50,509 nt of DNA, from positions 1-50,509 of the IMG/VR virus record IMGVR_UViG_3300008107_000272. One strand, 5' to 3'. Position numbers and translations under genes: made by a program. This document shows positions 26,975 to 46,359 of the stretch, piece after piece. The DNA is from a virus. The notes beneath the pieces were generated by a model, which saw only the letters and a program-made list of their open reading frames with translations, had not been told where the DNA came from and did not search any database. The number at the start of each line of letters is the position of its first letter. Position 1 is the first letter of the stretch.

Positions 26975-27133
26975 TCAATCAACTACTTCTTTATAATGAA
27001 GGTCCTCTGAACAATATTCTGTCTTCATAATTCCGACCATAATGTTCAGAGTACTCCAAGTCGTTTTGAATTCACTTTCATTTACTGAATGAAAGATACA
27101 TCTATCTTTTACATAGATATCATATTTTTTCAT
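26975..27133 (-). CDS. Small conserved cyanophage protein
   Basis: 52 aa: MKKYDIYVKDRCIFHSVNES, then EFKTTWSTLNIMVGIMKTEY and CSEDLHYKEVVD. It follows a pattern (Y.VY.KD.C.F..L.E.EF..TW..L..MVG.M.T) that recurs in cyanophage small proteins. It is translationally coupled (ATGA) to the AbrB-like gene upstream. No transmembrane segment; function unknown. Confidence 0.75.
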   Translation of the reverse strand: MKKYDIYVKDRCIFHSVNESEFKTTWSTLNIMVGIMKTEYCSEDLHYKEVVD

Positions 27134-27300
27134 TCTGTTTCTGAAAGTATAAGTTCACTTCCCTCTAAATTAAAGGTGATCTCTGTGTCTTCGTACCATG
27201 AAAGTTCGTTAACCATCCATTCTGGCAGTTTAATTGAATACTCACCAGTAATTGGATCAACCTCTACGGGGCGTTTTTCTTCTCCGGATTTTTTTCTCAT
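27130..27300 (-). CDS. AbrB/MazE-like swapped-hairpin protein
   Basis: 56 aa. After a charged start (MRKKSGEEKR), the segment VDPITGEYSIKLPEWMVNEL followed by SWYEDTEITFNLEGSELILS fits the SpoVT-AbrB fold: beta strand, 'ip..l...l.w..gd.v' turn, beta strands. Such domains bind DNA, either as antitoxins or transcription regulators. No toxin gene is adjacent. The 52-aa partner downstream is coupled by ATGA, so the pair may act together. This is the first gene to the left of the GC-rich island. Confidence 0.65.
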   Translation of the reverse strand: MRKKSGEEKRPVEVDPITGEYSIKLPEWMVNELSWYEDTEITFNLEGSELILSETE

Positions 27301-27551
27301 TCTTTGTGATATTTTTTATTTTTTTATATATCAACCTTATGAGAACTTTTTATTGGGGAAAAATTTTTTGATTTCGAGTGTATAAAAGAGCTCGCTTTCG
27401 TAACACTTTGTAGGTTAGGGTAGTTATGGGTTTTTATAATACCCCCCCATCACGCGCCACGCCATCACGTTAACGTTATACCATACCCTGCACCTGCACG
27501 AACCCACCCATAAGGGGGGGCACTGCTGCCCCCGTGTGCTAGGATGGAGGG
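27301..27551. other. Boundary spacer: AT-rich to GC-rich transition
   Basis: No gene is seen in these 251 bases. The left part (to about 27400) is very AT-rich, with a minus-strand TTGATATATAAAA just upstream of the AbrB-like gene. Around 27430-27450 a GGGT...ACCC hairpin surrounds TATAAT. The right part is GC-rich and ends in the terminator-like hairpin at 27516-27533. The base composition changes sharply here. Confidence 0.5.
27516..27533 (-). terminator. GC-rich hairpin closing the island
   Basis: Perfect GGGGGCA-loop-TGCCCCC (7-bp stem) about 20 nt downstream of the gene ending at 27552. There is no long U-tract, so it is a hairpin of the kind repeated in the island rather than a classical intrinsic terminator. 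Confidence 0.5.
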
Positions 27552-27734
27552 TCAGTCCAACTGTGGCGCCACAACGTCGGAAGCGTAGCGGTCAGCGTGG
27601 CAACCTGCCCACCACCATCCCTCAGCGGGGTTGATCTGTCCAGCAAAGGTGCGCTGAGGGGCAAGGTCAGAAGGGCGGGCGACCCACATGGTTTCGCGGG
27701 TCTGGAGGTCAGAGCACTGAGAGTAGATTGCCAT
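27552..27734 (-). CDS. GC-island mini-protein 1
   Basis: 60 aa: MAIYSQCSDLQTRETMWVAR, then PSDLAPQRTFAGQINPAEGW and a C-terminus ADRYASDVVAPQLD. No family recognised. The start was chosen because the promoter-like repeat (27750-27770) sits 16 nt upstream and would be inside any longer frame. It is the last gene of the GC-rich run. Confidence 0.6.
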   Translation of the reverse strand: MAIYSQCSDLQTRETMWVARPSDLAPQRTFAGQINPAEGWWWAGCHADRYASDVVAPQLD

Positions 27735-27807
27735 GATCGGTTCGGGTTGTGAACTGAGAGAATTGTAGCACGAAAGGGGGGCAGGCACGAAACCCGCCCC
27801 GTGGTGA

Positions 27808-27996
27808 TCAGCGGATGGGAACGTAGGCGACGCTCACCTCTACGTAGAGGGGTTCATCAGTATTGTAGTCATCCATCCGCTCCCGCAGTCCAGCGGCATC
27901 CGCCTCTGCCTTCTCAGCGGAGGCATAGAGTCCGAACAGTTCGGGGCGGTCGTAGTAGTCGTTGCCAGTGGTGAAGACGGCGTATGCTTCGGTCAT
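27808..27996 (-). CDS. GC-island mini-protein 2
   Basis: 62 aa: MTEAYAVFTTGNDYYDRPEL, then FGLYASAEKAEADAAGLRER and YVEVSVAYVPIR. The pattern (YAVF...YY.RPELFGLY....AEA) resembles other small cyanophage proteins of the 'AVF..gly.....A' kind. No function known. It starts with the ACCG-ATG leader and a repeat-type promoter 12 nt upstream. Confidence 0.68.
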   Translation of the reverse strand: MTEAYAVFTTGNDYYDRPELFGLYASAEKAEADAAGLRERMDDYNTDEPLYVEVSVAYVPIR

Positions 27997-28045
27997 CGGT
28001 CTGGGGTGTGAACTGAGAGAATTGTAGAGCATCAGGCGGCAGGGG

Positions 28046-28222
28046 TCAATACCCCAACCACACCAGGAATTCGCCAGTATCGACGCGAAAGGGAACCGTC
28101 CCATAGTCGGTGCGGAAGTCATCCCAGCAGGAGTGATCCTTTGCTGCCTGGCAGGCGGTGCTCCAGCGGATGGTGCCATTCTCAGGGTTGGTAGCGTTCC
28201 AGAGGATCTGAGGGAAGGTCAT
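28046..28222 (-). CDS. GC-island mini-protein 3
   Basis: 58 aa: MTFPQILWNATNPENGTIRW, then STACQAAKDHSCWDDFRTDY and FRVDTGEFLVWLGY. No family recognised. The ATG has the same ACCG-ATG context as its neighbours and lies just downstream of the degenerate promoter repeat at 28241-28253. There is a clear coding pattern (GC-rich third positions) and no membrane segment. Confidence 0.62.
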   Translation of the reverse strand: MTFPQILWNATNPENGTIRWSTACQAAKDHSCWDDFRTDYGTVPFRVDTGEFLVWLGY

Positions 28223-28271
28223 CGGTCGGTGTCGGTTGCTTTGAAATTATAGAGGATCAGAGGGCAGGAGG

Positions 28272-28460
28272 TCAATCCTCCATCCCCATCGCCTGCTTCA
28301 GGGTGTTGTAGGCGTTCAGGTAATAGTCGGCATCGGTTCCCTTGCCAGCGGTGCGACAATCAACAGCGAGGCAGAGCACAGCGGTTCGGATGGTGCTCCA
28401 CTGCGCCTCAGTCAGGGTGACGGTGCAGAGGTCCAGGGGCAGGACGTTGGTGCGGGTCAT
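28272..28460 (-). CDS. GC-island mini-protein 4
   Basis: 62 aa: MTRTNVLPLDLCTVTLTEAQ, then WSTIRTAVLCLAVDCRTAGK and a helical C-terminus ADYYLNAYNTLKQAM. No family recognised; probably an alpha-helical cytosolic protein. Own promoter repeat at 28472-28491. Unlike most neighbours, the ATG is not preceded by ACCG. Confidence 0.62.
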   Translation of the reverse strand: MTRTNVLPLDLCTVTLTEAQWSTIRTAVLCLAVDCRTAGKGTDADYYLNAYNTLKQAMGMED

Positions 28461-28510
28461 CAGAGGTCGTTTGAACTGAGAGTATTGTAGCAGATAAAGG
28501 GGCGGACTCC

Positions 28511-28696
28511 TCAGATCATCACCGTCGTGGGCAGCGCCTGAACGATGGGTGAGTGGTGGCGGTAGCAGAATTCCCGCAGGTCGTGGATCGACTCGCCAGC
28601 GAAGTCATCAGCGGTAAAGGTCCGACCGTGGAATTCGCGATCGATCTCAGTCAGGGTGTGAGCAATCAGGGAGCGGAGGTTCTGAGTGGTGGTCAT
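28511..28696 (-). CDS. GC-island mini-protein 5
   Basis: 61 aa: MTTTQNLRSLIAHTLTEIDR, then EFHGRTFTADDFAGESIHDL and REFCYRHHSPIVQALPTTVMI. No family recognised. Starts at ACCG-ATG; its promoter repeat (28707-28724) has a degraded -10 (TAGGAT). Confidence 0.62.
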   Translation of the reverse strand: MTTTQNLRSLIAHTLTEIDREFHGRTFTADDFAGESIHDLREFCYRHHSPIVQALPTTVMI

Positions 28697-28738
28697 CGGT
28701 TTCGTTTGAACTGAGAGAATCCTAGTCGGTCGGTGGGG

Positions 28739-28918
28739 TCAGTCGCGGTCGCTGATGTTCCAGATGCCCCACTGTCCACCGTTGGCATGAGCGTCGCGGG
28801 TTTCGATTGCCTGCTGACGCTGGGCGCTGGTGTAGCGGGTCCAACCCTCAGCGGTCTCGCTTGCCAGGGTGCTGCCATAGCAGGCATTCCAGATCAGGTT
28901 CGCTTCGGTGATGGTCAT
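28739..28918 (-). CDS. GC-island mini-protein 6
   Basis: 59 aa: MTITEANLIWNACYGSTLAS, then ETAEGWTRYTSAQRQQAIET and RDAHANGGQWGIWNISDRD. No family recognised. ACCG-ATG leader; promoter repeat 28933-28951. The frame is open and compositionally like its neighbours. Confidence 0.62.
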   Translation of the reverse strand: MTITEANLIWNACYGSTLASETAEGWTRYTSAQRQQAIETRDAHANGGQWGIWNISDRD

Positions 28919-28955
28919 CGGTCGGTGTCGGTTGAACTGAGAGTATTGTAGCAGA

Positions 28956-29081
28956 TCAGTAGGACTGCCAGGCGGATTCTGCCATGTCGTTTGCCATCTC
29001 CTCCAGATTGTCGGCGGTCACCCGCTCATTGTACCATTCGATCTCAGAGGGGTCCAGGCGGTGCAGATCGCAACCATACAT
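28956..29081 (-). CDS. GC-island mini-protein 7, possibly 5'-eroded
   Basis: 41 aa from the first available ATG: MYGCDLHRLDPSEIEWYNER, then VTADNLEEMANDMAESAWQSY. The frame stays open upstream and would add FKNAIAAE directly after the promoter repeat (29102-29120), but no ATG, GTG or TTG is present there. The N-terminus therefore looks eroded, or a non-standard start is used. NLEEMANDMAE is a motif I associate with small cyanophage proteins. Confidence 0.55.
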   Translation of the reverse strand: MYGCDLHRLDPSEIEWYNERVTADNLEEMANDMAESAWQSY

Positions 29082-29160
29082 CTCAGCAGCGATGGCGTTT
29101 TTGAACTGAGATCAGTATAGAGGCAAAAGGGAAGGGTCATCCCCCTCCGTTGTGCCACTA

Positions 29161-29295
29161 TCAGAACTGGACTTCTTCCAGAGTGGGTTGGGCAGCAGTG
29201 ATGGTATCATCGGCGCCGATGCTTTCCAGGATGCTCAGCAGTTCAGCACCATTGGCAGCGCGATTCAGCAGGGTCAGAGCGAGGTCGGTTGTCAT
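29161..29295 (-). CDS. GC-island mini-protein 8
   Basis: 44 aa: MTTDLALTLLNRAANGAELL, then SILESIGADDTITAAQPTLE and EVQF. Entirely helical and acidic. It resembles short cyanobacterial/cyanophage peptides of the form LAxxLLxxxxxGxExLxILDxI. Promoter: TACAAT at 29352-29357, immediately after the stop of the next gene upstream. Confidence 0.6.
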   Translation of the reverse strand: MTTDLALTLLNRAANGAELLSILESIGADDTITAAQPTLEEVQF

Positions 29296-29357
29296 GCTAG
29301 GATTGTGGGTTGTGGTTGTGGTTGGGAGTCTTTAAGGGCGCTCCCGCTCCCATTGTA

Positions 29358-29546
29358 TCAGGCGACCGCGTAGGCGGATTCCAGGCAGACCTCACGGATC
29401 TCCATCAGAACGTAGTCGATCCCCAGAGCACCGTCATAGAGTTCTGCCTTGTATGCTTCGGCAGCAGAGAGGCAATCGAACAGGCGGAGGGTATCGAAAC
29501 GCTCACCCTCATAATCAGCACCACCGATCACAGCGTAGACTTTCAT
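29358..29546 (-). CDS. GC-island mini-protein 9 (MKVYAVIGG family)
   Basis: 62 aa: MKVYAVIGGADYEGERFDTL, then RLFDCLSAAEAYKAELYDGA and a C-terminus VLMEIREVCLESAYAV. The MKVYAVIGGxDYEG start is a recurrent small-protein type in cyanophages, often in several copies. It is a predicted small alpha/beta protein. Promoter repeat 29561-29579 is a one-off variant (GACTTCAG instead of GATCTCAG). Confidence 0.7.
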   Translation of the reverse strand: MKVYAVIGGADYEGERFDTLRLFDCLSAAEAYKAELYDGALGIDYVLMEIREVCLESAYAVA

Positions 29547-29590
29547 GGGTTCGGGTCGTTTGAACTGAAGTCAGTATAGGGTCAAAGGGT

Positions 29591-29608
29591 GGGGGGTTGG
29601 TGCCCCCC
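29591..29608 (-). terminator. G-run hairpin with TGGCACA lead-in
   Basis: After the stop at 29619 the minus strand reads ACTGGCACAA, then GGGGGG-CACCAA-CCCCCC (6-bp stem), directly before the next promoter repeat. Typical of the island's intergenic module. No long U-tract. Confidence 0.5.
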
Positions 29609-29618
29609 TTGTGCCAGT

Positions 29619-29879
29619 TCAGAGATCGAACACGTCGCCGTTGATCTCAGCGCGGTTGATCTTAGGATCGTTCCACTTTACACCGTCAGGGGTCTCAGTG
29701 GTGCCGAACTCATAAAATGCCTCCAGCAGTTCCTCATAGCAGCAGATCTCATTCTCTTGAATGAAGTTATAGATGCTCTCATCATTCTCAATCCAGAGAA
29801 CAACGTTCCAGGTTTCGTAGTTAGTCCAACCGTTATAGGTGCGGTCGGTGAGGTTGGTCTGGTAGGTTGCGGTTGCCAT
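29619..29879 (-). CDS. GC-island protein with NGWTNYETWNV motif
   Basis: 86 aa: MATATYQTNLTDRTYNGWTN, then YETWNVVLWIENDESIYNFI and TPDGVKWNDPKINRAEING. The NGWTNYETWNVALWI motif occurs in many small phage proteins of unknown function (I believe DUF7249-type). Soluble, acidic. Own promoter repeat at 29894-29912. Confidence 0.78.
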   Translation of the reverse strand: MATATYQTNLTDRTYNGWTNYETWNVVLWIENDESIYNFIQENEICCYEELLEAFYEFGTTETPDGVKWNDPKINRAEINGDVFDL

Positions 29880-29916
29880 TGGTGGTTCGGGTGTGAACTG
29901 AGATCAGTATAAGGGG

Positions 29917-30084
29917 TCAGCGGCGCAGGAGGTCGGCGCTGGTGGACAGTAGGTCTGCTGTCACACTACGGACGGGATACAGTGGACCCCAGAACCCCCA
30001 GAGTAGCAGCGCAGCGATCGTCAGGCGGAGCATTGTGGCACGGTGAAACTCAGGGGATCGTGAGCGGGTCAGGGTGCGGATCAT
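29917..30084 (-). CDS. Small membrane protein
   Basis: 55 aa from MIRTLTRSRSPEFHRATMLR; an alternative start (MLRLTIAALLLWGFWGP) gives 38 aa. One hydrophobic segment LTIAALLLWGFWGPLY. The longer start overlaps the preceding stop as ATGA, which favours it. The C-terminus is SVTADLLSTSADLLRR. It forms a two-membrane-peptide operon with the 27-aa gene upstream. Confidence 0.5.
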   Translation of the reverse strand: MIRTLTRSRSPEFHRATMLRLTIAALLLWGFWGPLYPVRSVTADLLSTSADLLRR

Positions 30085-30164
30085 CGGCGGAGGATACGTT
30101 GCAGGAGCAGGACCTGACCTGCCCCCAGAGCGTAGGCGATCAGGACTAGGATGCCAGTGATCAT
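30081..30164 (-). CDS. 27-aa membrane peptide
   Basis: MITGILVLIAYALGAGQVLL followed by LQRILRR: a single hydrophobic helix with a basic tail. The ATG overlaps the previous stop (ATGA) and its own stop overlaps the next ATG, so it sits inside a translationally coupled three-gene unit. Too short for any family call. Confidence 0.5.
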   Translation of the reverse strand: MITGILVLIAYALGAGQVLLLQRILRR

Positions 30165-30322
30165 CGTTCCAGTTGTGCCAGGGAGGATGGTGCGATGTGA
30201 GAGGGGGAACCACAGGAGAGATAGAACTCTACCATACGGTCTGCCTCCTCCTTAGTGGGGAACCACTGGGAGCGCCACTCACAAGCGTTGTAGGGGGTCT
30301 GGTAGCGGACTTCGAAGCGCAT
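30161..30322 (-). CDS. GC-island mini-protein (MRFEVRYQTPY family)
   Basis: 53 aa: MRFEVRYQTPYNACEWRSQW, then FPTKEEADRMVEFYLSCGSP and SHIAPSSLAQLER. The pattern (YEVRYQTPY..EWRS..F...EDA.RM..FY.SCG) recurs in cyanophage small proteins; probably a small alpha/beta fold. First gene of the three-gene unit, behind a degenerate promoter repeat at 30338-30352. Confidence 0.7.
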   Translation of the reverse strand: MRFEVRYQTPYNACEWRSQWFPTKEEADRMVEFYLSCGSPSHIAPSSLAQLER

Positions 30323-30363
30323 GGGGTTGGTTGCGTTGTGAGAGTATTGTAGCGGGTCGGCGT

Positions 30364-30381
30364 GGGGGGCACGTGCCCCCC
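30364..30381 (-). terminator. Perfect 18-bp palindromic hairpin GGGGGGCACGTGCCCCCC
   Basis: A perfect inverted repeat with no loop, located between the stop at 30395 (followed by CACTGGCACAA) and the next promoter repeat. As RNA it would form a 7-bp stem with a 4-base loop. It could also be a protein-binding site. Confidence 0.5.
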
Positions 30382-30394
30382 TTGTGCCAGTGCC

Positions 30395-30559
30395 TCAGTC
30401 GGCATAGAGGCGCTGGAAGTCCTCGAGGAAGTCCCGTGCCTCATCACCACTCATACGGGCGATCATCTCCTTGGCAACGGTTTCCCAGGAGAAGTCGTCT
30501 GCCAGATCGTAGATGGCGCTCTTTGCCTGGTTTGCGGTGAGGCGGGTTGCGGTGCTCAT
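30395..30559 (-). CDS. GC-island mini-protein, helical
   Basis: 54 aa: MSTATRLTANQAKSAIYDLA, then DDFSWETVAKEMIARMSGDE and ARDFLEDFQRLYAD. All-helical and acidic; resembles small phage proteins with 'W..VA.E.l..MSgde...FLEdf.r.y.d'. ACCG-ATG start, promoter repeat 30570-30588. Confidence 0.66.
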   Translation of the reverse strand: MSTATRLTANQAKSAIYDLADDFSWETVAKEMIARMSGDEARDFLEDFQRLYAD

Positions 30560-30592
30560 CGGTGTTGTGTGAACTGAGATCAGTATAAGGGG

Positions 30593-30772
30593 TCAGCGGG
30601 CAGCAGGCAGGAGGCATTTGGACACTTGACCAGGTGTCACAAGCACCTGCCCACCCTGTGCGGTGCAACGTGCTTCGATGCGAGCATTGCCATTGCGAAG
30701 CAAAGTAACGTAACCAGCGGTTGCCAGTGTGATGACCAGCAGGGCGATGGCGGTTGCTTTGAGGGTCTGCAC
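30593..30772 (-). CDS. Single-pass membrane protein, GTG start
   Basis: 59 aa from a GTG: VQTLKATAIALLVITLATAG, then a polar domain RIEARCTAQGGQVLVTPGQV and SKCLLPAAR. N-terminal hydrophobic segment with an N-in topology likely and a small exported domain with two cysteines. GTG was chosen because the promoter repeat (30785-30803) lies 13 nt upstream and excludes longer frames. It is divergent from the plus-strand RNA element at about 30.9 kb. Confidence 0.58.
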   Translation of the reverse strand: MQTLKATAIALLVITLATAGYVTLLRNGNARIEARCTAQGGQVLVTPGQVSKCLLPAAR

Positions 30773-30834
30773 TGGGTCGGTTGTCTGAACTGAGATCAGT
30801 ATAAGGGCAGAGTGGGGGCAGAGTCGGGGGCAGG

Positions 30835-30856
30835 GTGCCAGTTCAGAAGGTGGCAC
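30835..30856. repeat. GTGCCA-N10-TGGCAC inverted repeat
   Basis: Inverted repeat GTGCCA...TGGCAC between a divergent gene and the plus-strand RNA element. The same arms recur at 34819-34844, 34993-35016 and 41346-41365 (shorter). The half-site TGGCACA also follows many stop codons in this region. Confidence 0.5.
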
Positions 30857-30863
30857 ACTGGTG

Positions 30864-30898
30864 GTTGTATGGGGTCGCCGTGGCCCTATACTGAGGTC
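30864..30898 (+). promoter_or_regulatory. Plus-strand promoter for RNA element 1
   Basis: TTGTAT, a 16-bp spacer, then TATACT on the plus strand, followed by GAGGTCACAAG. This is the only strand reversal in the island and leads directly into the structured element. It is a moderate match to sigma-70. Confidence 0.5.
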
Positions 30899-30901
30899 AC
30901 A

Positions 30902-31009
30902 AGCGAAGGAGGGGCGGGGTAGCCCTGATGACGAAAACGGTCGCCACGCCCCCTGCCATAAAATAAAAAAAAGAAAAAGTATAAAAAAAGGGGGCGGATT
31001 GCACCCCCC
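30902..31009 (+). ncRNA. Candidate structured small RNA, copy 1
   Basis: Plus-strand element with a second copy at 34893-34984. Core 30911-30952 folds as an outer stem GGGGCG/CGCCCC (30911-30916 with 30947-30952) enclosing a short hairpin (30917-30926) and a CGA/UCG hairpin (30932-30943), with the single-stranded segments UGACGA, CGCCAC and the tail UGCCAUAAAAUA identical in both copies. The second copy keeps the pairing through G-U to A-U and C-U changes. It ends in a GGGGG/CCCCC hairpin followed by TTTT. No open reading frame is shared between copies. It does not match the hammerhead core, although CUGAUGA is present here. Function unknown. Confidence 0.55.
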
Positions 31010-31013
31010 TTTT
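30984..31013. terminator. Bidirectional intrinsic terminator
   Basis: GGGGG-9 nt-CCCCC hairpin flanked by A7 on the left and T4 on the right, so it reads as a U-tailed terminator on both strands. It ends the plus-strand RNA element and the minus-strand gene whose stop is at 31021. Confidence 0.72.
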
Positions 31014-31020
31014 GTATCAT

Positions 31021-31182
31021 TCAGCGACCGTCAGTATAGTCTCCGATGATCATACCATTCTGGCGAACCTGAGCGTAACCGTATTCTTCAGAGAGTGACA
31101 GGCACAGGTCCCAGGCACGATCCTCATCGGTGGTAGTGTTCTCCCAAGGAGCGGAAGGGCAGATCACGTCTAGGCGTTGCAT
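31021..31182 (-). CDS. GC-island mini-protein
   Basis: 53 aa: MQRLDVICPSAPWENTTTDE, then DRAWDLCLSLSEEYGYAQVR and QNGMIIGDYTDGR. Resembles small cyanophage proteins in which an 'AWDLCLSLSEEyGYAqvr..g..iGdYt' block is preserved. ACCG-ATG start, promoter repeat at 31193-31211; its stop is followed by the bidirectional terminator. Confidence 0.68.
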   Translation of the reverse strand: MQRLDVICPSAPWENTTTDEDRAWDLCLSLSEEYGYAQVRQNGMIIGDYTDGR

Positions 31183-31249
31183 CGGTTTCGTTTGAACTGA
31201 GATCAGTATAAGGGGTGGAGGGGGTCGGTTGTGACCCCCAGTGGACGGT

Positions 31250-31426
31250 TCAGAGATCGGCCCAGAGAGCGGTGGTGATCTTCTCAGCGCCCTCCAAACC
31301 GTCGCGAACGATCAGGCGAAGGGTCTCAGCACCGTCAGGGGTGCGGTGCATCTGGCGGATCATGCTAGGGGTGAACACGTCCCAGGTGATCACGTGTGCG
31401 GTCTGCAGGAGTTGCTCGCGGGTCAT
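31250..31426 (-). CDS. GC-island mini-protein
   Basis: 58 aa: MTREQLLQTAHVITWDVFTP, then SMIRQMHRTPDGAETLRLIV and RDGLEGAEKITTALWADL. Helical, no family recognised. Promoter repeat 31439-31457. It is the last gene of the GC-rich run before composition returns toward the phage average. Confidence 0.62.
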   Translation of the reverse strand: MTREQLLQTAHVITWDVFTPSMIRQMHRTPDGAETLRLIVRDGLEGAEKITTALWADL

Positions 31427-31495
31427 CGCGGTTGCTTGTGAACTGAGATCAGTATAAGGGGCAGGCGGTGCCCCTTGCTGGTTCAGGTGGACGGT

Positions 31496-32395
31496 TCAGG
31501 CACTGGCACACTGAAAGCGTCCGCTGGTGAAATTGTGGTAGGAAAACACTTCACGATTCACCAGTTTAAACATACCAAACTCATTGGAGAGAACATAACC
31601 TTCAGCATCAATTCGATCCTGTTTGATGTATGCTGCGGGACCATTGTTGCGGCACAGGAATAGGCAATCCTCTTTGATAGATTTAACCAGTTTCCAGAAT
31701 CGGATGAGGTTAGGATCACAATCAAAGGCATCATCCTCAATCTCACGCTGCTCACGAATGCAGGCGTTGATTGCCTTCTTCAGTTCTGCCAGTTGTTTAC
31801 CCTGAACGAACTGGCAGGTGGTTGACATTTGGCGGGCGAAGTTGCAGACTTCTTCTACATCAGCGAACGAAGTCTGACCGTGCAGAATGTAGGCATCGGG
31901 TTTCACGAATAGCACGGAATCAGTAGACTCCAGGTTCACCGTGAGAGGGATTGCCCAACTATCACGAAGGTCATCGTTTGCTTCATAACGGGTGTGAGGT
32001 GCGATGATAATTTGCTGATCAATAACCTCAGGGAACTGATAAGTAATCAGATTGGGAGTGTATTCAGTCTCACCACCAAACCCGATAAAATCACCTTGAA
32101 TGATACCATTCACACGGGGCAGATAATCAAAACACGAATGAAGAATGTTGGCGACATTACCCTCATAGTGTTGATCAATCTCGTCGTGAGAGTGTGCAAT
32201 ACGAATCTTCTTTTTGTTGAAAACTGCTTTCGTTCCAACGAAGAATGTATCAGTTGCAGGATCAATTCCCCACACAATTGCAGGGGCACCGTCAATCTTA
32301 ACGCTCAGATGCCTACGAGCAGTGAACCAATCCAGCACGGAAAGATCACCGTTCAGGATGGTATCTTCGGGGTGCTCTTGGTGCTTGTTTTGCAT
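31496..32395 (-). CDS. RNA ligase-like nucleotidyltransferase
   Basis: 299 aa. Residues 31-46 (SVKIDGAPAIVWGIDP) contain the KxDG motif of covalent nucleotidyltransferases, with Lys33 the likely adenylated residue. FFVGTKAVFNKKK (51-63) and GIIQGDFIGFG (97-107) fit motifs III and IV, and VLFVKPDAYI may be motif V. The EHPED start is typical of a cyanophage family annotated as putative RNA ligase. Such enzymes seal nicked RNA, for example tRNA cut by host anticodon nucleases, but the substrate here is unknown. The start at 32395 was chosen over an upstream in-frame Met because the promoter (CATACT about 25 nt upstream) lies inside the longer frame; ACCG-ATG leader. Confidence 0.7.
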   Translation of the reverse strand: MQNKHQEHPEDTILNGDLSVLDWFTARRHLSVKIDGAPAIVWGIDPATDTFFVGTKAVFNKKKIRIAHSHDEIDQHYEGNVANILHSCFDYLPRVNGIIQGDFIGFGGETEYTPNLITYQFPEVIDQQIIIAPHTRYEANDDLRDSWAIPLTVNLESTDSVLFVKPDAYILHGQTSFADVEEVCNFARQMSTTCQFVQGKQLAELKKAINACIREQREIEDDAFDCDPNLIRFWKLVKSIKEDCLFLCRNNGPAAYIKQDRIDAEGYVLSNEFGMFKLVNREVFSYHNFTSGRFQCASA

Positions 32396-34892: not shown

Positions 34893-34984
34893 TGAGGGGA
34901 GAGGTATCCCTGCTGACGACAATACATCGCCACCGCTCCTGCCATAAAATATTCATTCTCAATAAGAAACCCCTTATTGAGAAT
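34893..34984 (+). ncRNA. Candidate structured small RNA, copy 2
   Basis: Second copy of the element at 30902-31009. Outer stem GGGGAG/CGCUCC (34896-34901 with 34934-34939, one mismatch), inner hairpin AGG/CCU (34902-34911), CGA/UCG hairpin (34917-34929) with a longer loop, and identical UGACGA, CGCCAC and UGCCAUAAAAUA segments. Downstream is a perfect 12-bp hairpin ATTCTCAATAAG/CTTATTGAGAAT (34955-34984) instead of the GC-rich terminator of copy 1. It lies between a divergent and a convergent gene, as copy 1 does. Confidence 0.55.
34955..34984. terminator. 12-bp perfect hairpin, possible bidirectional terminator
   Basis: ATTCTCAATAAG-AAACCC-CTTATTGAGAAT. Long but AT-rich, without a marked U-tract. 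It separates RNA element 2 from the convergent 50-aa gene. Related TTCTCAA/TTGAGAA arms recur at about 35663-35714. Confidence 0.5.
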
Positions 34985-35016: not shown

Positions 35017-35169
35017 CTACCAGTCGATATCGTGATCTTTGATCTTACAATGGACATCCTCATTGGGTTCGAGTTGCAATAACTCTTTCCAATTAATATC
35101 CTCGATGTCTAGATCATCATAACACATGATGTCGAGTGTGACTGTAACTAGGCGCTTCTGTGCTAACAT
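35017..35169 (-). CDS. 50-aa conserved-looking acidic protein
   Basis: MLAQKRLVTVTLDIMCYDDL, then DIEDINWKELLQLEPNEDVH and CKIKDHDIDW. Alternating strand-helix pattern, acidic C-terminus. The 'VTVTLDI.cyDDLDieDINWkelL.Lep.EdV' pattern is familiar from short cyanophage proteins. The ATG is at the edge of the gene-free region that carries the palindrome array. Confidence 0.66.
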   Translation of the reverse strand: MLAQKRLVTVTLDIMCYDDLDIEDINWKELLQLEPNEDVHCKIKDHDIDW

Positions 35170-35256
35170 ACGTGTCTAGTGCGATGTGTCTAGATTATAT
35201 CATGCATAATGACGATATGCAAGATCTTGATAGTCTTGCCCATCTCGTGCATAATC

Positions 35257-35537
35257 CTCGTCGAGATCACGTACATCTAGTGTATAATGCTCGTCGAGAT
35301 CTGCGTAATCGTTGCCAGTGTATGAGTAGTCGAAATCGTAATCGTCGTACATAGCTCGTCGAGATTGTGTGAACGCTTTCGTATTGTAGCATAAAACTCG
35401 ACGAGATGCAATCTAGTCTAGATGTGTGTCTCGTCGAGAATCATACGAATATATATGTACTCTCGTCGAGTTTTATGTGTATCTCGTAACATAAGGTCTC
35501 GTCGAGATCCTATAAGTCTAGTGTGGGTCTCGTCGAG
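35257..35537. repeat. Array of eight CTCGNCGAG palindromes
   Basis: Copies at 35257, 35290, 35355, 35397, 35430, 35462, 35498 and 35529 (9 bp each). Start-to-start spacings are 33, 65, 42, 33, 32, 36 and 31 bp. The 65-bp gap is twice 32.5 and holds a decayed site (GTAGTCGAA, near 35326). About 32 bp is three helical turns, so the sites would lie on one face of the DNA. The centre is T in seven copies and A in one. I saw none of these elsewhere in the window. Confidence 0.85.
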
Positions 35538-35576: not shown

Positions 35577-35605
35577 TTGACAAACTGCGTGTCTTATGCT
35601 ACGCT
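35577..35605 (+). promoter_or_regulatory. Plus-strand promoter-like site after the array
   Basis: TTGACA, 17-bp spacer, TACGCT, followed by AAGGTCACAAG. GGTCACAAG also occurs just downstream of the -10 of RNA element 1. No gene follows on this strand. Confidence 0.4.
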
Positions 35606-35785
35606 CGCTAAGGTCACAAGACCTGGACCCATTTATAAGGTATTATCAGGTATTAGAATGCTTATTCTCAACAATAATACACTATTGATTCTCAATTAAT
35701 TAACACTTATTGAGAACAGTATAATAAACAACTTTATATTTAAAATACCTTTTTTTAATTAAATTTAACCTTTTTTACCCTATTT

Positions 35786-35962
35786 TTAACCTAAATCACT
35801 CTCTTTACGCTTATTTTCCATATCAGCAGTATGCTCTAATTCACCATGAACATGACGCCTTTGTTGACGCTTTGAAATCTCATTTGCTCTTGCTCTTGCG
35901 ACATCCACTGGATTCTGATTCATATGAGGAATCTGTTCCATTAACTGAGCAAACGTCTTCAT
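35786..35962 (-). CDS. Small basic protein with capsid-targeting-like N-terminus
   Basis: 58 aa: MKTFAQLMEQIPHMNQNPVD, then VARARANEISKRQQRRHVHG and a charged tail. MKTFxQxxEx resembles the MKTYQEF-type capsid-targeting sequence of T4 internal head proteins, and the basic remainder fits a DNA-associated internal protein. An AATAAATA late motif lies 24 nt upstream. The internal-protein role is inferred. Confidence 0.6.
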   Translation of the reverse strand: MKTFAQLMEQIPHMNQNPVDVARARANEISKRQQRRHVHGELEHTADMENKRKESDLG

Positions 35963-40845: not shown

Positions 40846-41286
40846 TCACTTCGCATACAAATAAGCACCCGCCCAATCTGCATTTTCAAGCAACCATTCA
40901 CGCTGCTCAATCAAACGCAGATCATAACGAACACCTTTGGCAGGAGACTTCCAAGATGCAGACTTGTAAACCTGACCAGTCTTTTTATCCACAAAAGCGT
41001 GGACAGATCGGGAACCATTGGCAACCATAATAATTTTGTGATACTTGCGACCAGTTTCAGGGTAGAACTCATAACCACAGATACCTTCTTTCAGTTTAGA
41101 AATCTGCTTCTGGTGATACTCATTAGTATCAGCATCATCAATAAACTTTTGATGGGACTTGATGCTGTAATCAATGAAGTTCTGGCGAAGTGCCTCACAG
41201 AGAGCATAGGTGTGCCCCAGAACTGCCTCTGCGATGTTCTTCCGTGCCTCTGCTTGGGCGGAGTAGTCAGCGAAGGTCGTGGTCAT
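40846..41286 (-). CDS. Conserved phage protein (VHAFVDKKTGQVYKSASWK)
   Basis: 146 aa: helical N-terminal half (MTTTFADYSAQAEARKNIAE) and a beta-rich part with YHKIIMVANGSRSVHAFVDK, then KTGQVYKSASWKSPAKGVRY. The second half is a frequent phage module of unknown function. ACCG-ATG leader with TATAAT at 41308-41313, like the GC-island genes although composition here is average. Confidence 0.75.
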   Translation of the reverse strand: MTTTFADYSAQAEARKNIAEAVLGHTYALCEALRQNFIDYSIKSHQKFIDDADTNEYHQKQISKLKEGICGYEFYPETGRKYHKIIMVANGSRSVHAFVDKKTGQVYKSASWKSPAKGVRYDLRLIEQREWLLENADWAGAYLYAK

Positions 41287-45633: not shown

Positions 45634-45793
45634 TTTTTAGTCTATCCTCACATTTAGTATAAAAGGTTCCATTTACATAACAGGACTTGCCTGGTTCATA
45701 ATATCTTACCACTGGTATTTGTGGTTTTGGATATTCTAGCACATTTTTTACATGACAGAATATATTGTAACCACAAAGAAGAGTTTCAAACAT
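45620..45793 (-). CDS. 57-aa cysteine-containing protein
   Basis: MFETLLCGYNIFCHVKNVLE, then YPKPQIPVVRYYEPGKSCYV and NGTFYTKCEDRLKNGTF. Hydrophobic, Cys-rich N-terminus and C.....YTKC loop, perhaps an exported peptide. TAATG overlap with the upstream stop supports the start. Confidence 0.6.
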   Translation of the reverse strand: MFETLLCGYNIFCHVKNVLEYPKPQIPVVRYYEPGKSCYVNGTFYTKCEDRLKNGTF

Positions 45794-46359
45794 TATTTGA
45801 TAACTTTGCGTAAAGTATATGACCCATCTTTGTTATCAATCCACTGCACTTCATCACCTGCATGAATTCCAGAAACTTGTTGCAAATCTTCTGGGAAGGT
45901 TACAAAATACTCTCCACTTGGTCCATCAAGTTCAACAGGAAGAACCCATTTCTTTTTATTATCATAATACTCTGCCTCACGCAGATTATATTCTTGACAT
46001 TGTTCTTTTTCTTCATTCGATGCTGCTTTGTCGCACATCGCATTCAGTTGTTCTTCAGTGTATTGGGAAGGATTGGCAATCATATATTCTAGATCACTAT
46101 GACCCCACGGTGGCATAGAAGGTTCGTAGTAGTCTCTTTCTTTCAATACATCTTCATAAGATTGTCCAGAATTATTATTCAGAAGAGTAAGAAGTTCATA
46201 ACAACGACTGGCATGAAATTTATAGTGATGGTATTGTTCATCCACAACACTCTTGATTACATCATAGATTTCTTGGGGAGTTGCTTCCGCCGAAGAAATG
46301 GCATCGTGCATCCAATTATCAAGTTGTTCAAGAGAATACTTCTTGTAGTCAAAGGTCAT
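45793..46359 (-). CDS. Conserved cyanophage protein with C-terminal AbrB-like domain
   Basis: 188 aa. Residues 1-70 (YKKYSLEQLDNWMHDAISSA, then EATPQEIYDVIKSVVDEQYH) form a helical module seen in many cyanophages. Residues about 140-188 (VLPVELDGPSGEYFVTFPED, then IHAGDEVQWIDNKDGSYTLR) fit the SpoVT-AbrB swapped-hairpin DNA-binding fold. A DNA-binding regulator is inferred. No toxin partner was seen. It heads the run toward CP12. Confidence 0.75.
   Translation of the reverse strand: MTFDYKKYSLEQLDNWMHDAISSAEATPQEIYDVIKSVVDEQYHHYKFHASRCYELLTLLNNNSGQSYEDVLKERDYYEPSMPPWGHSDLEYMIANPSQYTEEQLNAMCDKAASNEEKEQCQEYNLREAEYYDNKKKWVLPVELDGPSGEYFVTFPEDLQQVSGIHAGDEVQWIDNKDGSYTLRKVIK

Follow-up and report, generated by a model that had tools for sequence, protein, structure and literature searches.

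The CTCGNCGAG array of the window covers the promoter, the ribosome-binding site, and the first codons of a minus-strand gene for a small acidic protein. The array probably consists of operators (consensus AATCTCGACGAGATT) for a sequence-specific and presumably dimeric protein, embedded in the promoter, leader, and first codons of a small early operon, beside a putative replication origin of a T4-like cyanophage. The window, i.e., the whole stretch of DNA that was analyzed, is a virus record of 50.5 kb, and its early region contains segments with BLAST matches to T4-like cyanophages, the best of which is to S-SRM01. The best reading of the locus as a whole is that of an exchangeable protein-binding array within an origin and early-promoter control locus of cyanomyophages.

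Palindromes, promoter and genes in the window

Eight exact copies of CTCGNCGAG are present in the window compared to 0.06 expected copies, and none of 100 shuffled sequences reached this number. The copies start at positions 35257, 35290, 35355, 35397, 35430, 35462, 35498, and 35529, resulting in spacings of 33, 65, 42, 33, 32, 36, and 31 bp. The eight palindromes and their spacings, which had been described in an earlier sequence-only reading, were thereby all reproduced at their exact positions and far beyond chance. Outside the array, no further CTCGNCGAG copy is found in the 50.5-kb window. A ninth palindrome, CTAGTCTAG, is found at 35413 when the motif is relaxed. Among the matches listed, all literature matches to CTCGACGAG and CTCGTCGAG were unrelated to the array.

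The region had been regarded as gene-free, which is wrong, as it contains a promoter and a gene start on the minus strand and two ORFs of 50 aa each. The first ORF (35200-35352, minus strand) encodes the acidic protein MYDDYDFDYSYTGNDYADLDEHYTLDVRDLDEDYARDGQDYQDLAYRHYA and is unannotated; it is present in 224 of 231 sequences examined, representing 89 distinct loci. The second ORF (35017-35169, minus strand) belongs to phrog_12516 and is the second gene of the small operon; the structural model of its protein has a pTM of 0.52 and a single short helix. A decayed palindrome copy that had been noticed in the 65-bp interval is located inside the conserved acidic ORF and not in gene-free DNA.

Read along the minus strand, the locus begins with palindromes 8 (35529-35537), 7 (35498-35506), and 6 (35462-35470), followed by the late-promoter-like element CATATATA (35450-35457), palindrome 5 (35430-35438), the variant palindrome CTAGTCTAG (35413-35421), the -35 box TTGCAT, and palindrome 4 (35397-35405). 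Further downstream are the extended -10 box TGC-TACAAT, palindrome 3 (35355-35363), the ATG of the acidic ORF, palindromes 2 (35290-35298) and 1 (35257-35265), and the phrog_12516 ORF. Palindromes 6 and 5 thus flank the late-promoter-like element upstream and downstream, respectively; an element of the type TATAAATA is found in 17 of 89 loci. The variant palindrome lies directly upstream of the -35 box of the sigma-70-type promoter (TTGCAT-17-TACAAT, 35383-35411), while palindrome 4 lies within the spacer of this promoter and touches the -35 box. Palindrome 3 ends 2 nt short of the ATG in the ribosome-binding region, a position that is kept across relatives. Palindromes 1 and 2, both reading CTCGTCGAG, lie within the acidic ORF and encode Leu-Asp-Glu (CTC GAC GAG) on the minus strand; both were included in the site count and in the codon test described below. 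On the plus strand, a divergent sigma-70-type promoter (TTGACA-17-TACGCT) is located at 35577-35605, and a similar pattern occurs in 63 of 83 loci.

The palindromes had also been proposed to be helically phased and to face one side of the DNA. This part of the proposal is weak. The phasing resultant in the window is 0.21 at 10.5 bp per turn and reaches a maximum of 0.78 over 10.2-10.8 bp (P ~0.014 compared to random spacings). Among 427 adjacent spacings in relatives, some peaks are near multiples of a helical turn (about 21, 32, 42, and 62 bp), but additional off-phase peaks occur at 16-17 and 24 bp and the resultant is 0.28. Spacings of 39-42 bp are largely a consequence of promoter anatomy. 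Helical phasing was dropped as the chief feature of the array because of the weak signal.

Conservation and selection of the sites

The locus is recurrent, being found in more than 300 IMG/VR stretches and in S-SRM01, S-SKS1, and S-T4. A close search for the phrog_12516-type protein yielded 64 IMG/VR loci and a profile search 336 relatives, while a profile search with the acidic protein yielded 516 IMG/VR relatives; the best 80 of the 336 and the best 80 of the 516 loci were carried forward. Loci that share less than 93% ungapped identity across the 150 bp upstream were counted separately, which gave 89 distinct loci among the 224 ORF-bearing sequences, although these counts are not independent as many loci are related. 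S-SRM01 has the same arrangement with an unannotated acidic gene, and S-SKS1 and S-T4 carry diverged versions of the locus. The suggestion to search related phages for the array at the corresponding position thus had a positive outcome. In related records of 90-240 kb, the palindrome is almost restricted to the locus, the exceptions being a second small cluster in some records and two in S-SRM01.

The two additional clusters of S-SRM01 are located in its early region at 88.2 and 90.9 kb (L190, 4160-4260 and 6900-7010), one before a gene for a 62-aa protein and the other at the end of and after a short ORF. A second cluster in another relative (L184, 2540-2660) has a palindrome in the spacer of a TTTACA-18-TATAAT motif, followed by a sequence that reads like a tRNA gene. 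In general, the extra arrays in S-SRM01 and others, which are 1.4-5 kb away, come after stop codons and are mostly without a clear promoter, which counts against the main reading.

The placement of the sites relative to the promoter and the start codon is conserved. A forward sigma-70-type promoter with a spacer of 16-18 bp was recognized in 77 of 83 distinct loci, and 69 of these 77 promoters contain a palindrome between the -35 and -10 boxes, mostly touching the -35 box. With looser clustering at identities of 0.75 and 0.65, the spacer palindrome is found in 45 of 53 and 26 of 32 promoters, respectively. Similarly, the gap between the last upstream site and the ATG is 2-4 nt in 83 of the 87 loci with an upstream site, and in 52 of 58 and 32 of 36 loci at the two looser thresholds. 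A scan of viral contigs for the operator combined with an extended -10 box returned at least 121 matches, and 98 of the matches listed precede the acidic gene. When bacterial and archaeal genomes were scanned for the promoter-plus-operator pattern with a host regulator in mind, the one match was outside the cyanobacteria.

Within the acidic gene, Leu-Asp-Glu is written as CTCGACGAG in 123 of 148 cases (83%), while codon usage at the remaining Leu, Asp, and Glu positions in these genes predicts about 6%; with the loosest clustering, the figures are 46 of 56 cases compared to 6%. This codon choice indicates that the DNA sequence itself is under selection. An origin of the array as a by-product of Leu-Asp-Glu repeats in the acidic protein together with chance could account for the two of eight sites that encode this tripeptide, but it is contradicted by the codon choice and by the other six sites, which are non-coding; it is therefore hardly credible.

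The consensus of the sites across loci is AATCTCGACGAGATT, with C->A at position 3 and G->T at position 7 being tolerated. Symmetric co-change of positions 3 and 7 is supported by p values of 3e-6, 0.001, 0.012, and 0.08 as the clustering is loosened, so that the symmetry of the site rests mainly on the consensus because the co-change signal fades once related loci are merged. On the gene strand, the center of the site is A in 264 and T in 113 cases. This preference for a central A, together with the site that ends at the ATG in most loci, would also fit sites that act in RNA, with the transcript being recognized by an RNA-binding protein or a nuclease near the ribosome-binding site. Such a function is improbable, however, as sites also lie upstream of and within the promoter, the consensus is symmetric, and T-centered sites are common in the promoter spacer. 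The palindromes look like operators at the DNA level, given their overlap with the core promoter and a selection of sites beyond coding need. The proposal of an operator for a phage regulator, one of several put forward in the sequence-only reading, has gained support from palindromes in the core promoter and the ribosome-binding region of dozens of distinct loci.

AT-rich stretch, DnaA boxes and the putative origin

An AT-rich stretch adjoining the array had been noticed before and is real. It extends over 35640-35800 and is a candidate DNA-unwinding element; the highest value for any 150 bp within 1.2 kb of the array is 80% AT at 35640. In 50 of the 51 loci with enough flanking sequence for this test, compared to 8 expected, the 150-bp segment with the highest AT content within 2.5 kb is located 150-900 nt upstream of the ATG, and in S-SRM01 no other 150 bp of the genome are as AT-rich as those at the locus.

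Several relatives have DnaA boxes at this place. Perfect boxes were counted as TTTTCCACA, which is the cyanobacterial DnaA-box consensus (PMC4674748), or TTATCCACA, and boxes less than 300 bp apart were regarded as a cluster. Within 3 kb of the gene, 21 of 22 boxes are found in the 500 bp upstream, and seven loci hold two or three boxes; S-SKS1 has three boxes. At least two boxes were found in 6 of 83 loci when a stretch of 550 bp was scanned, and in 5 of 73, 4 of 56, and 1 of 35 loci after clustering, the count varying with the length of the stretch scanned. DnaA-box clusters are thus confined to a minority of lineages. In G002, S-SKS1, and DSL-LC03, the sole close DnaA-box clusters fall in loci of the present kind, while no clustered boxes (<300 bp apart) were found in S-SRM01, G001, S-T4, and S-CAM7. 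The window has no cluster either, but a single box at 40985, which is 5.6 kb from the array. The spot that is occupied by two or three host-type DnaA boxes in several relatives holds TTGAGAAT-type boxes in the window, with three TTGAGAA-type boxes at 35662, 35686, and, inverted, 35707 (35662-35716). A perfect 12-bp inverted repeat, ATTCTCAATAAG/CTTATTGAGAAT, at 34955-34984 shares words with these boxes.

DSL-LC03, which matches the window in BLAST with an E value of 7e-7, has five DnaA boxes in place of the palindromes. Searches from DSL-LC03 in turn led to S-PM2 (7e-6), DSL-LC02 (2e-6), S-RIM32 (0.004), and Sf-FR1 (0.001), and to S-ShM2 with a match that spans just 33 bp of DnaA boxes. In S-PM2 and DSL-LC02, the sole close DnaA boxes are located at the matched locus. 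S-RIM32 has three boxes at 60807-60841 and two more at 61859-61880, at a distance of about 1 kb. In S-ShM2, four boxes are found between 52811 and 53092, and two DnaA boxes immediately precede the ATG of a small gene. As far as can be read from the sequence, the boxes of S-PM2, S-RIM32, and DSL-LC02 adjoin an AT-rich stretch. S-PM2 and S-RIM32 resemble loci of this kind in having DnaA boxes and an AT-rich stretch, followed by a lineage-specific repeat array, ahead of a small gene. Their repeats, however, are different sequences (AAATCTCAAAATCTG-like in S-PM2), which counts against the main reading. The annotation of S-PM2 (L580, 578-734) includes a tRNA-Asn and a tRNA-Leu that overlap both the DnaA boxes and the AT-rich stretch; these entries may be spurious. 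S-CAM7 carries the same phrog_12516 gene but differs in having GCAGYATAT repeats and no clustered DnaA boxes; several repeats of this type lie upstream of the phrog_12516 gene (L194, 1530-1720), forming a different array at a related place.

A replication origin, which had also been proposed for the array region, gains support from the AT-rich stretch in nearly all loci and from the DnaA-box clusters in several relatives, and replication may accordingly start at this locus. GC skew, which had been recommended as a check, gives a divided picture: a skew switch lies within about 1.4 kb of the locus in G002 and in the window, whereas in G001 and S-SRM01 the skew does not mark the locus. As it differs between genomes, GC skew was dropped as proof of an origin. 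Two observations count against an origin of the DnaA type in the window lineage: the window has no cluster of DnaA boxes, and the GC skew is uneven.

With an origin at this place, the palindromes could primarily be iterons, i.e., binding sites of a replication initiator, and their overlap with the promoter would lead to autoregulation as a by-product. This is possible, though rather less likely than an operator function. It would be in line with the five DnaA boxes that DSL-LC03 has at the array position and the two that directly precede an ATG in S-ShM2, with the adjoining AT-rich stretch, with the reach of the sites into the gene, and with direct half-sites (ACGAGAT), which occur in some lineages (L340, L412, and S-SKS1). 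However, the link of the sites to the promoter spacer and to the ATG in dozens of loci is a better fit to transcription control, the spacing is irregular (31-65 bp) and not that of evenly spaced direct repeats as in T4 oriE, and the early region of S-SRM01 contains extra arrays elsewhere. A further and still less likely suggestion is that DnaA boxes of origins of the DSL-LC03 and S-PM2 type were replaced by sites for a phage protein in the window lineage; this binder would then control the early operon and take over origin licensing from the host DnaA.

Candidate binding proteins, proposed mechanism and known systems

A candidate for the array-binding protein is encoded at 27133-27300 on the minus strand. 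This 56-aa protein (phrog_661) may have an AbrB/MazE fold: its model (pLDDT 68) has MazE and AbrB proteins as top Foldseek matches (probability up to 0.97, E >= 0.12) with VIA Z scores of up to 5.0, while Pfam MazE matches of its homologs are below the cut-off. The protein is 46-50% identical to its S-SRM01 counterpart, and relatives are encoded about 7-10 kb from the array in most loci that are long enough to judge, but phrog_661 also occurs in phages without the array locus. Based on synteny and predicted fold, it is only a candidate. Pfam and PHROGs scans of the neighboring window ORFs tested revealed no clear regulator. A comparison of presence and absence across seven genomes revealed no DNA-binding protein with the exact pattern of the array; exact matches were structural-type genes, small ORFs, and the small locus itself, and phrog_661 fits loosely. 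A second candidate DNA-binding protein of 188 aa (45793-46359) weakly resembles phrog_661/MazE at its C-terminus (phrog_661 E 1e-6).

A non-coding stretch of 46 bp (27391-27436), located upstream of the phrog_661 gene at a distance of about 90 nt, shares 93-96% identity with non-coding sequences in P-SSM2, P-SSM5, and Marine virus AG-345-F15, a high DNA identity despite the just 46-50% identity of the phrog_661 protein to that of S-SRM01. The adjacent region at 27400-31500 is a GC-rich (~57%) run of small genes with reversed GC skew, in which a promoter-like stretch of similar sequence, reading TATACTGATCTCAGTTC or TACAATTCTCTCAGTTC on the minus strand, recurs at several genes; the GC-rich stretch is present in G001 and G002, too.

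The ORF scans also bear on the guess of a centromere or ParB-like site. Clustered palindromes broadly resemble parS sites and plasmid centromeres, but the sites are fused to a promoter and no ParA or ParB match was found among the neighboring ORFs scanned, which are a part of the ORFs of a window that is itself a fragment. T4-like phages are not known for partition systems, and a ParB-type segregation function is very improbable.

For the operator function, the most likely mechanism is binding of a dimeric protein to the palindromes. A protein bound in the spacer between the -35 and -10 boxes would block the sigma-70-type early promoter, binding on both sides of the transcript start and in the leader would cover the start, and the bound sites would bracket the late-promoter-like element. 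By this repression, the two-gene operon would therefore be switched off or timed during infection, while the AT-rich stretch could serve as the unwinding element of the origin.

The locus, which is found repeatedly in many lineages of cyanophages, represents a concrete and testable operator and a candidate origin, together with an unannotated gene that is conserved in dozens of distinct loci. According to a review of T4-like cyanophages (PMC2984593), the T4 proteins that regulate the early and middle phases of transcription are absent from these phages, the control of these phases is unknown, and Syn9 was the only one with a predicted origin. If the array does swap with DnaA boxes between lineages, these phages would provide a natural series for the change of origin-binding proteins in phages.

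Origin and early-operator regions of phages are known as such, and the unusual feature here is a palindromic array that extends into a gene. Origin E of T4 (oriE, repEA/repEB) is similar in that a small ORF and an early promoter occur together with unexplained repeats (PMC3016281), but the repeats of oriE are even direct repeats, whereas the window has irregularly spaced palindromes inside promoter and gene. Cyanobacterial oriC is similar to the locus of several phage relatives, in which an AT-rich stretch lies beside at least two TTTTCCACA/TTATCCACA boxes; the window differs in having TTGAGAAT-type boxes instead, and no dnaA or dnaN gene was seen at the locus. The papers found to mention both cyanophages and DnaA boxes concern host genomics, as judged by title. 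Repressor operators between the -35 and -10 boxes are a known layout, which is shared by the window palindrome in the sigma-70-type spacer with its second site near the ribosome-binding region; the window differs from this layout in having up to nine sites, which reach into the coding sequence.
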